A stretch of 64,000 nt of DNA from Brachyspira aalborgi (lineage in GTDB: Bacteria; Spirochaetota; Brachyspiria; Brachyspirales; Brachyspiraceae), in NCBI RefSeq assembly GCF_008016455.1, contig NZ_SAXU01000001.1, forward strand, positions 620,001 through 684,000, written 5' to 3'. The position numbers and the translations under genes are program-made. Below the pieces are notes generated by a model. It made no database searches, was not told where the DNA came from, and saw nothing but the letters and a program-made list of their open reading frames with translations. How positions within the stretch are numbered: position 1 is the first letter of the stretch; each line of letters opens with the position of its first letter. Below are positions 5,673 through 62,828 of this stretch, in pieces.

Positions 5673-6611
5673 TTAAATTTTAAATTTATTTCTAAAATTA
5701 TCTCGCCATTTTCTAACGGGAATCCACCAAGCTAAAGTATCAATTAATTTATTTAATCTATCTAATTTATCATTTCTACTTTCAATTAAATTTTTATCAT
5801 TAATAAAAAACTTTTTATTTACTAGCATTATATTTATAAATTTATCTACTAAATCTTGTTTATAATGTTTAGAAAATAATTTTTGACATTCCAAAATATC
5901 ATTATCGGTAGGCAAATATTCCCAAGGCAAAGTTAATAAATATAGATAATCTAAAATATTGTCTTTTATATTTTCGTCTAAAATTACAGCGCCGATATTA
6001 GCAAATCTATTCCATAAACCTTCATTAAAACTTAATTTTTTGCCTCTTAAACAGCTAAATAATATACAATTTGTTATACTATGTCTTTCATTGCCATTAT
6101 AATGCAACGCAATGTCATGCAATATTAAAATAGCGTTCTTTTTAAGATATGGCAATACTATTAAAAAATCTAAAAATTCTCCAGGATTTATATGCATCGT
6201 ATCTATTAAGCATAAATTTATTTCTCCCCCGATTTCCTCCATATATTTTGCCGCTGTTCCTCCCGTATATAACTTCCATTTATTTTTAAGATTACTAAAT
6301 TTTTCATCTATAATAAAACCTGTATTTTTAGAATTATCATAATACAATTTTGTATTATAATCTACGGAATATAATTTAGCGTTATCAAAATCTTTTATAG
6401 CATTTAAAATAATAGCCGAACTCCCGCCAGCTGACACACCCAATTCAAGTATCTTTTTAGGTTTAGTTTGTCTGACTATTCCATTCAAAAAATACCTTTC
6501 TAAATAAGTCATTTCGCTAGTAAGCTTTGATTTAGTAATCTTTATATCTAAAATATCGTTGATTTGATTTAATACTTCATTTTCAAATTTTTCAGGTTTA
6601 TCTATTATCAT
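5673..6611 (-). CDS. Class I SAM-dependent methyltransferase, glycan-type
   Basis: The 312-residue protein has a Methyltransf_24 / cephalosporin-hydroxylase-like Rossmann core: KILELGVSAGGSSAIIL (motif I, about residues 54-70), an acidic strand YSVDYN, and CLIDTMHINPGEF with a DIALHYN loop that could bind a metal or sugar. The C-terminus ends WWIPVRKWRDNFRNKFKI, a basic aromatic tail that I associate with spirochaete and Campylobacter glycosyltransferase-type proteins (from memory). Modification of a surface glycan is therefore likely but inferred. GGAG precedes the ATG. The gene lies downstream of a leader that holds a 5-bp tandem repeat (6780-6933), so its expression may vary between cells. 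Confidence 0.7.
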   Translation of the reverse strand: MIIDKPEKFENEVLNQINDILDIKITKSKLTSEMTYLERYFLNGIVRQTKPKKILELGVSAGGSSAIILNAIKDFDNAKLYSVDYNTKLYYDNSKNTGFIIDEKFSNLKNKWKLYTGGTAAKYMEEIGGEINLCLIDTMHINPGEFLDFLIVLPYLKKNAILILHDIALHYNGNERHSITNCILFSCLRGKKLSFNEGLWNRFANIGAVILDENIKDNILDYLYLLTLPWEYLPTDNDILECQKLFSKHYKQDLVDKFINIMLVNKKFFINDKNLIESRNDKLDRLNKLIDTLAWWIPVRKWRDNFRNKFKI

Positions 6612-6779
6612 TTTTTACTCCTTCTTTCTTTATTTAATTTATTTTTTATTTGCGTAAATTAAATTTGAAAGAAGATTTTAATTTAGTAGTAAAATATGAT
6701 TTTATAATATTTGCTAAAATGAATATAAATAATAATCTATTCTTATTATAAAATTTAATAATTAAAACATATATATAAA

Positions 6780-6872
6780 TTAAATCTTTGCAATGAAAAA
6801 ATCGCCGAAAAAATTTATAATGCGGCGTGTAGTGTAGTGTAGTGTAGTGTAGTGTAGTGTCAAACTAAACAT
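6780..6872 (-). CDS. Leader open frame containing a pentanucleotide repeat
   Basis: An ATG at 6872-6870 follows an excellent ribosome site (GGTGGAG, 7 bases upstream) and a consensus promoter. After four codons it enters six ACACT units, encoding TLHYT repeats, and stops after 30 residues at TAA (6782-6780). Loss of one unit would shift the frame and extend it to 73 residues, ending at 6646, only 35 bases before the methyltransferase start; gain of one unit would stop it within a few codons. The strong signals argue that it is translated; its role as a switch for the downstream gene is inferred. Confidence 0.5.
   Translation of the reverse strand: MFSLTLHYTTLHYTTRRIINFFGDFFIAKI
6827..6860. 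repeat. Pentanucleotide tandem repeat (GTGTA / ACACT unit)
   Basis: Thirty-four bases of perfect 5-bp repeat, about 6.8 copies. On the plus strand every frame contains TAG, whereas on the minus strand all frames are open, which fits a coding repeat on the minus strand. A unit of five is not a multiple of three, so each slippage event changes the reading frame. Confidence 0.95.
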
Positions 6873-31750: not shown

Positions 31751-31779
31751 TTGACAAATTTTTTAATCTATGTTATATT
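31751..31779 (+). promoter_or_regulatory. Consensus sigma-70-type promoter of the repeat/lipoprotein locus
   Basis: TTGACA (31751-31756) and TATATT (31774-31779) are 17 bases apart. The start of transcription would be near 31786, about 36 bases before the ATG at 31822 and about 310 bases before the lipoprotein ATG at 32096. Confidence 0.7.
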
Positions 31780-31821
31780 TTAATTATATTTATAGTTAAA
31801 TAAATAATGGATTATAAAAAA

Positions 31822-31896
31822 ATGAATAAAAATACTGTAATTTTGTTAAGCAAAGCAAAGCAAAGCAAAGCAAAGCAAAGCAAAGCAAAGCCATAA
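31822..31896 (+). CDS. Leader open frame containing a pentanucleotide repeat (SKAKQ)
   Basis: From the ATG at 31822, nine codons (MNKNTVILL) run into eight CAAAG units, which encode SKAKQ repeats, and the frame ends at TAA (31894-31896) after 24 residues. In the next frame the DNA is open from 31850 through to 32587, including the lipoprotein. One extra repeat unit, or two fewer, would therefore join the leader in frame to the lipoprotein, adding 93 residues in front of its Met. No ribosome site precedes the leader ATG. Translation of this frame is inferred from its layout. Confidence 0.4.
   Translation: MNKNTVILLSKAKQSKAKQSKAKP
31848..31890. repeat. Pentanucleotide tandem repeat (CAAAG unit)
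   Basis: Forty-three bases: AAG followed by eight perfect CAAAG units. The unit length is not a multiple of three, so slippage changes the downstream reading frame. All three frames of the repeat are open on the plus strand. Confidence 0.97.
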
Positions 31897-32095
31897 TTGT
31901 CTTTTAAATAATAATTTTAAATTTTATATATCTAAATTTTTAAAGGCATTTAAATTTTTAAGTGTCTCAATTTTATTGCATAATTTAGTTAAAACTTTTT
32001 TAACTTCAATCAAATTTACTTTCGATAACTTATCAAGGAAAATAAAAAATCCTTGTTTAGTTATAAATAAAAATTTTTTAAAGGAGGATTTCACA

Positions 32096-32587
32096 ATGAA
32101 ATCTAAACAAATTATTATTATGCTCTTATCGTTTATTATCCTGTTTGCGATAAGTTGCAAAAATGACGACAAAACGGGAGGAGGAGTCGATGAAGGTTTA
32201 GTAGTTCAAAATCGTAATCATCCGCCAGCTGGAAGCTATTATGATGGTGGTAATACTAACACGGGTTCAGCACATACCGTCACACATAATATAGACGGTT
32301 CTTGCAAAATATCTGGAAAAGTTTATCCCATTAATGGAAACGGTTTAGACTATGAGATTACTGTAACAAATTGGTTAAATTATCCCAATATCACAACCGT
32401 CCAAAATCTTAATTATGTTGGCACATCGTATGGTGGAGAATATACTATTACTAAACCATCTCCTAATTCTTTAGACTCTTTCAATGTAATATATGACTTT
32501 ACCACTGAAACTATATCCTCAATATCTTTAAGAACTGCTTCGGACAGCAAACACTATAGCGCATTAAATTTGAAAAGGGGTAATTAA
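32096..32587 (+). CDS. Secreted lipoprotein, unknown function
   Basis: A perfect ribosome site (AAAGGAGG) stands 7 bases before the ATG at 32096, which fixes this start over longer in-frame alternatives such as the TTG at 31976. The 163-residue product has a lipoprotein signal peptide with lipobox AIS-Cys at about residue 20, then a Gly/Asp/Asn-rich linker and a beta-rich domain (ITVTNWLNYPNITT). It should be anchored by lipid in a membrane. The gene lies downstream of, and in frame with a possible slippage product of, the CAAAG repeat, so surface expression may be variable. Family not recognised. Confidence 0.75.
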   Translation: MKSKQIIIMLLSFIILFAISCKNDDKTGGGVDEGLVVQNRNHPPAGSYYDGGNTNTGSAHTVTHNIDGSCKISGKVYPINGNGLDYEITVTNWLNYPNITTVQNLNYVGTSYGGEYTITKPSPNSLDSFNVIYDFTTETISSISLRTASDSKHYSALNLKRGN

Positions 32588-62180: not shown

Positions 62181-62324
62181 TTATAAAAAACCTTTGCTAT
62201 ATAAATTTTTATTTAATATATTAAGGTTAATTATAATTCGGTTATTAGGTTTTTGCAAATTAATTTATTAAAAGTCTTATAATTTAATAAAGTTAAATTT
62301 TGTAAAAATATATTGATTTAATAT

Positions 62325-62352
62325 TTGACAAATTTTTATTTTATGTTATTTT
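62325..62352 (+). promoter_or_regulatory. Promoter, first copy, upstream of grdX
   Basis: TTGACA (62325-62330) and a TATTTT box (62347-62352), 16 bases apart, in the first duplication unit. Confidence 0.45.
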
Positions 62353-62403
62353 ATATATGTTAAATGATAAATTAAATTTTGTAAAAATATATTGATTTAG
62401 TAT

Positions 62404-62431
62404 TTGACAAATTTTTATTTTATGTTATTTT
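62404..62431 (+). promoter_or_regulatory. Promoter, second copy, directly at the grdX start
   Basis: TTGACA (62404-62409) and TATTTT (62426-62431), 16 bases apart, with the ATG only 4 bases after the second box. Transcripts from here would be leaderless; transcripts from the first copy would have a leader of about 75 bases. Confidence 0.5.
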
Positions 62432-62435
62432 ATAT

Positions 62436-62828
62436 ATGTTAAATAAAAAGAAAAATATAATAATTACGAATAATCCGAAAATATTAGAAGAAATTTCCGA
62501 TAAAAATATAGAAATTTCTTATTTTGAGCAAGCGGATTTTATGGAGATTTCATATAAGGCGAGGGATTTTATACATTTAGGATATAAACTTTTAACTCAT
62601 CCTATTGTCAGCAGTATAAAACCTTATGAAACTCCTTATAAAACCATAGTTCTTGCTTATAATAACGGAGAAATTGATTTAGAATCTATAGAATTAATAG
62701 AAAATTCTATAGAATTATTAAAAAATTTTTTAGATAAACCGAGAAGAAAATTGACTAAAAGTATAGACGAAGATTTTAAATTAATAGATTATAAATTAAT
62801 AAGCGAGGCTATAGAAAGTATAGCTTAA
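62436..62828 (+). CDS. grdX: GrdX family protein
   Basis: The 130-residue protein has the GrdX pattern: KNIIITNNPKILEE at the N-terminus, ARDFIHLGYKLLTHPIVSSIKPYE in the middle and SIELLKNFLDKP further on. GrdX opens glycine reductase operons in Clostridia and in spirochaetes that use glycine as electron acceptor; its biochemical role is not established. The ATG at 62436 lies at the end of the second promoter copy without a ribosome site, so translation from a leaderless message is possible. trxB follows after 17 bases. Confidence 0.88.
   Translation: MLNKKKNIIITNNPKILEEISDKNIEISYFEQADFMEISYKARDFIHLGYKLLTHPIVSSIKPYETPYKTIVLAYNNGEIDLESIELIENSIELLKNFLDKPRRKLTKSIDEDFKLIDYKLISEAIESIA

Follow-up and report, generated by a model that had tools for sequence, protein, structure and literature searches.

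The opa genes of Neisseria carry CTCTT repeats in the region coding for the signal peptide, and the lic genes of Haemophilus are translational slipped-strand contingency loci. The mod genes as well as the p78 lipoprotein gene of Mycoplasma fermentans are assigned to the same kind of locus (cited in PMC3711429), and translationally coupled gene pairs are recognized by a distance of no more than 10 nt between a stop and the following start (PMC3711429). Treponema pallidum exhibits poly-G phase variation of tprL and tp0126 (PMC7864442), while in Helicobacter pylori a G-repeat in the tlpB leader is read by the small RNA RepG (PMC8295292). For Brachyspira, no account of repeat-based phase variation was found in open-licence PMC full text, and a keyword search for phase variation or repeats in the papers on the genomes of B. 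pilosicoli and B. aalborgi yielded nothing relevant.

The window, i.e., the whole 64,000-nt stretch of Brachyspira aalborgi DNA that was analyzed, contains a lipoprotein gene preceded by a pentanucleotide array within a separate leader. This locus is composed of the following features:

31751..31779, + strand, sigma-70-like promoter of the leader, TTGACA-17-TATATT (motif scan)
31822..31896, + strand, leader ORF MNKNTVILLSKAKQSKAKQSKAKP, ATG at 31822 and stop at 31894-31896
31851..31890, + strand, (CAAAG)8 pentanucleotide array, eight perfect units read from the sequence
31891..32095, + strand, linker with one frame open (SHNCLLNNNFKFYISKFLKAFKFLSVSILLHNLVKTFLTSIKF...); leader out of phase with it at 8 units, lipoprotein in phase
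32025..32064, + strand, conserved two-part hairpin ATAACUUAUCAAGGA...UCCUUGUUUAGUUAU, 31 nt upstream of the gene start
32081..32087, + strand, Shine-Dalgarno AAGGAGG of the lipoprotein gene
32096..32587, + strand, lipoprotein gene, 163 aa, MKSKQIIIMLLSFIILFAISC lipobox

Re-reading reproduced to the base the eight CAAAG units, the ATG at 31822 and the frame end at 31896 that the sequence-only reading had described. The promoter it had placed upstream of this ATG is the TTGACA-17-TATATT element at 31751-31779, the best in the region, with 11/12 matches and a TG ahead of the -10; no other site in a 500-base scan scored above 9/12. An ATG at 31807 is in frame with the leader and is an equally possible leader start. 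Neither of these two ATGs has a Shine-Dalgarno sequence, while most sister leaders have one (GAGGAAAG), and this absence counts against the cassette model set out below. The frame after the array is open from 31850 to 32587 and includes the whole lipoprotein, as had been claimed, and 205 nt separate the array end from the lipoprotein ATG. By frame arithmetic, leader and lipoprotein are in phase whenever the array has a multiple of three units: nine units give a 256-aa product in which the lipoprotein Met is residue 94, six units also join the frames, and at 5, 7, 8, 10 or 11 units the leader product ends early. The earlier statements that one unit more or two fewer would fuse the leader, with 93 residues ahead of the Met at nine units, and that the lipoprotein gene keeps a good ribosome site of its own were both correct. 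As in known contingency loci, the array is perfect, has a unit length that is not a multiple of three and lies within a reading frame, and one class of unit numbers joins the start to a long open frame while the others end early. The 163-aa lipoprotein itself matched no Pfam family above cut-off.

The likeness to Neisseria opa consists in a pentanucleotide array near the 5' coding end, the presence of many such loci, surface proteins as targets and a phase set by unit number. In contrast to opa, the lipoprotein locus and about 25 others have a distinct leader ORF for the array, which is placed about 140-217 nt upstream of the gene and outside the signal-peptide coding sequence, the downstream genes have their own ribosome binding site and start, the units vary by locus, and non-surface genes are included. 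Frame change by gain or loss of repeats and surface targets are shared with Haemophilus lic and mod and with p78, but in these the repeat or homopolymer lies inside the controlled gene. Treponema pallidum poly-G tracts resemble the present arrays in being simple repeats of a spirochaete associated with outer-membrane proteins, yet they are homopolymers in promoters that act on transcription and involve no leader ORF. Similarly, the mRNA leader ahead of tlpB in H. pylori contains a repeat of variable length, but there the length affects binding of a small RNA and not a reading frame.

A second arrangement of this kind is present in the same window, with the leader out of phase with the linker frame:

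6829..6858, - strand, (ACTAC)6 array within a leader ORF (MFSLTLHYTTLHYTT...) starting at 6872
6648..6828, - strand, linker with one frame open, ending 37 nt ahead of the gene start
5673..6611, - strand, downstream gene, methyltransferase domain PF13578

Throughout the B. aalborgi genome, 28 leader-array-linker loci had analyzable frames, a count that stands for at least 28 rather than for a complete pentamer census. The left-edge search with the pattern BAAGCAAAGCAAAG gave 19 matches, all starting TAAG(CAAAG)n with n = 3 to 19, while the reversed control of the pattern had 0 matches in this genome. The 19 matches represent 18 real loci because one pair consists of overlapping contig ends with 128-nt identity, and L014 was rejected as a separate locus since it represents an overlapping contig end, that of the contig carrying L013 and L029. 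At L029 (about 2.004 Mb of the genome) a (TCATC)n array adjoins a 98-N gap, and the contig ends appear to disagree, with 7 versus at least 8 units, a hint of length heterogeneity in the culture or of an end error. Six matches came from a pattern scan of viral_contigs. Searching with the leader brought in three more copies, of which L121 has an interrupted array, L122 only one unit and L123 a CAACG repeat, and the linker search, with 29 matches in this genome, added AACAG copies (L191-L194) as well as CAGTA copies (L195-L197); L190 has just one CAAAG unit. The pentamers accordingly differ among loci (CAAAG, CAACG, AACAG, CAGTA and ACTAC), and compared between copies and species the arrays have 1-19 units among the paralogues and other numbers in B. 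catarrhinii. The common leader upstream of the CAAAG arrays consists of a promoter, GCCGAGAAATCGGTGAGGAAAGTTTGATATG in most copies and an ORF beginning MKITINNNTVNLLSKAKQSKAKQ. Sister leaders have a TTGAC...TATAAT block upstream, and their Shine-Dalgarno is preceded by a CCGA-GAAA-UCGG hairpin, which in one copy shows a paired double change to CCAA-GAAA-UUGG.

Most of the genes downstream encode either lipoproteins (MKHTKN, MKSKQ, MKLLKK and MKEQRK types) or outer-membrane-like proteins (MKKIKKF type). Others encode an ABC transporter ATPase, two dynamin/septin-type GTPases and proteins with a TM2 domain (one) or a methyltransferase domain (one). With downstream genes this varied, the cassette looks portable. 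At L024 (genome position ~1524342), leader and array are fused directly to an outer-membrane-like gene that is missing both its signal peptide and its first residues and is apparently a truncated copy.

At all linker loci of the B. aalborgi genome except L032, where the linker is closed, one frame only is open from the array to the gene start. The chance of an open linker in dinucleotide shuffles was 0.2-10% per locus (0.75% at the lipoprotein locus), and unrelated linkers (L029, L031+, L033 and the ACTAC and CAGTA types) are likewise open. Among the 26 loci with two starts, the open linker frame runs into the gene at 14, while at the remaining 12 it ends -37 to +5 nt from the first base of the ATG, in several cases in an ATGA stop-start overlap (L028, L123, L031+ and L033) or, at L029, in another type of overlap. 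These 12 loci, with a leader frame that terminates at or close to the ATG of the gene, often in ATGA, resemble coupled gene pairs, and no more than about 10 nt separate the stop from the following start at L027, L028, L029, L123, L031+, L033 and, in B. catarrhinii, L081. What sets them apart from such pairs is the array, which interrupts or connects the upstream frame; at the lipoprotein locus this frame is fused in frame to the gene. As 14 of the 26 frames enter the gene and 12 end near its start, fusion is optional and one of two outcomes; the common property is an open path from the array to the gene start.

The plainest form of the arrangement was found at L023 and at L075, its counterpart in B. 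catarrhinii, the only loci with the array in the signal-peptide coding sequence. Here the array directly precedes the hydrophobic stretch of a lipoprotein signal peptide, which is where the likeness to opa is strongest, and the sole ATG lies upstream of the array. Both copies have five units, are out of phase and constitute plain, opa-like on/off switches. This on/off form sets the likeliest meaning of the in-phase and out-of-phase states for the family as a whole. The leader is in phase at only one of the 28 B. aalborgi loci (P = 0.0002 against one third, treating paralogues as independent), and adding four B. catarrhinii loci gave P = 0.00004 for in-phase depletion under equal use of the three phases, values to be read with the fact that the paralogues are not fully independent, though their unit numbers vary widely. 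The sole in-phase locus is L029, with nine units, before a sugar-type ABC transporter ATPase. Because the in-phase state occurs at just 1/28, the phase states are not neutral, and this state seems to have been selected against in the sequenced isolates.

On balance, and with some reserve, we favor the reading that these loci are modular slipped-strand contingency cassettes that would control expression via translation of the leader. The modules follow each other as promoter, short leader ORF, array of 5-nt units, open linker of about 140-205 nt, and ribosome binding site with gene start, and gain or loss of units would shift the leader's phase. When leader and linker are in phase (unit numbers divisible by three at the lipoprotein locus), ribosomes from the leader would translate the entire linker and reach the gene start, where they could finish at or next to the start codon and re-initiate, or continue into the gene. 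In the other two phases translation would usually break off no more than about 25 nt from the array. The linker would then stay untranslated, and the gene should be expressed less through loss of coupling and through transcriptional polarity. Since Rho is encoded in the genome, polarity is possible. We infer that slippage takes place in the living cell at useful rates, that in-phase means ON, and that coupling or polarity is the route. With eight units and the leader out of phase, the predicted present state of the lipoprotein locus is OFF or low. The strong ribosome binding site of the gene, together with inconsistent predicted accessibility of its Shine-Dalgarno, counts against the effect that the model ascribes to linker translation. 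Masking of the Shine-Dalgarno by an untranslated linker was rejected, as predicted accessibility shows no consistent dependence on the linker being held open.

The sign could also be the opposite, with translation of the linker hindering initiation at the gene's own ribosome binding site, so that the in-phase state would be low and the out-of-phase state expressed. The good Shine-Dalgarnos of the genes and the predominance of out-of-phase loci (27/28) agree with this, but stop-start overlaps usually raise downstream initiation by translational coupling, and out of phase L023 and L075 have no ATG start for their gene at all, which makes the opposite sign unlikely.

According to the sequence-only reading, slippage would change the localization of the lipoprotein rather than its amount, the in-phase state giving the extended 256-aa form with a buried signal peptide and the out-of-phase state the normal product from the gene's own ribosome binding site. 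The 14 of 26 loci in frame somewhat exceed one third (P 0.025, paralogy uncorrected), and at not one of them is the leader in phase, both of which would fit this proposal. However, fusion is impossible at 12 of the 26 loci, a single downstream family has versions of both kinds (the MKHTKN/MNNTK lipoproteins are in frame at six loci and out at one), and the array position at L023 and L075 allows on/off control only. Nor is there amino-acid conservation in the linker in a DNA-level test. A protein-guided alignment, which favors the tested frame, had given 44 synonymous changes versus 30.7 expected (P 0.004), but the excess vanished in the DNA-level alignment, where no synonymous preference was detected in the linker with the limited power of about 50 changes per group, and a conserved leader or linker peptide was rejected. 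This lack of preference suggests that translation through the linker, rather than its peptide, is what counts. Because the frame relation is not conserved in the family and in relatives, fusion was rejected as the general design. What has endured of the earlier proposal is that the array decides the phase of the leader and that the gene has its own ribosome binding site, both of which recur throughout the family, while a change of localization as the design of the system has not been borne out. As a general account it is quite improbable; such switching is unproven and not general, though the loci with an in-frame linker, about half of them, may use it, and a fused product may be made at the lipoprotein locus.

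The linker hairpin bears on the idea that array length acts independently of frame, by altering RNA structure, spacing or small-RNA binding in the mRNA leader, in the manner of the tlpB G-repeat of H. pylori (PMC8295292). Four pairs of this hairpin are changed on both sides among seven distinct sequences, and 98.9% of cells are paired versus 24-47% when the pairing is slid. Where present, it lies ~30 nt ahead of the gene start. Divergent linkers are without it, and the hairpin is therefore dispensable for the switch. A scan found no intrinsic terminator in the linker, and by that scan the hairpin is none; Rfam families gave no match up to E 1, i.e., no known structured RNA leader. A covarying hairpin and an array within the transcribed leader would suit frame-independent action, but it leaves the open linkers ending at gene starts and the 5- and 7-nt units unexplained, the repeat sequence is exchangeable and the Rfam match is absent, and we regard it as very unlikely. 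A lipoprotein paralogue at L129 (genome position 602547) has linker and hairpin without the repeat leader.

That the repeats are a passively spread element of no regulatory effect, with frames left open by a recent ancestral coding segment, is similarly hard to credit. The close paralogy of many copies, the single CAAAG unit of L122 and L190 and the closed linker of L032 would agree with it. Against it, unrelated linkers are open as well, the shuffle probabilities per locus are 0.2-10%, the hairpins covary and in-phase states are depleted.

The proposed contingency cassette was followed in a comparison set of 26 genomes, all of the genus Brachyspira. B. catarrhinii has the same CAAAG family, and its loci keep open the intervening frame in which the sequence-only reading had proposed to look for stops in relatives: at L102 the linker frame enters the lipoprotein gene, while at L081 (ATGA) and L085 it ends at or beside the start. 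The linkers of L085, L090 and L102 carry inserted repeat elements (encoding, e.g., KKWIASLVSLARND) with the frame still open. Other Brachyspira have the heptamer CATACAG at the equivalent site, together with homologous leader, linker and hairpin, with 15 units in G004 (L200), at least 13 in G007 and 6 in G009 (L209). In a second heptamer gene type (L206, L210 and L211 in G003, G017 and G021), the open frame was judged by eye to extend to, or almost to, the gene start. The homologous leader in G003 (L199, 1522-1672) holds (CAACAG)25, an array of hexamers. Units of this length are unable to alter the phase, and the locus counts against the cassette model. This leader is perhaps a locked former switch.

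A more far-reaching reading is tentative, though worth serious consideration: a portable Brachyspira phase-variation module with an exchangeable 5- or 7-nt array would stand before unrelated genes, nearly all of them off, so that each cell might express a random small subset of surface proteins, controlled through translation of a separate leader instead of the gene. If the cassette works as proposed, a single gut spirochaete would have at least 28 independently switchable loci, many for lipoproteins or outer-membrane proteins, with a bearing on surface diversity, typing and vaccine candidates. A working cassette would further mean that a repeat can be relocated from the gene to a leader ORF that is separate and exchangeable.

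Elsewhere in the window, at 62287-62444, two tandem 79-bp promoter-like units (TTGACA ... TATTTTATATATG) that are 97% alike were observed, and both are similar to the leader promoters.
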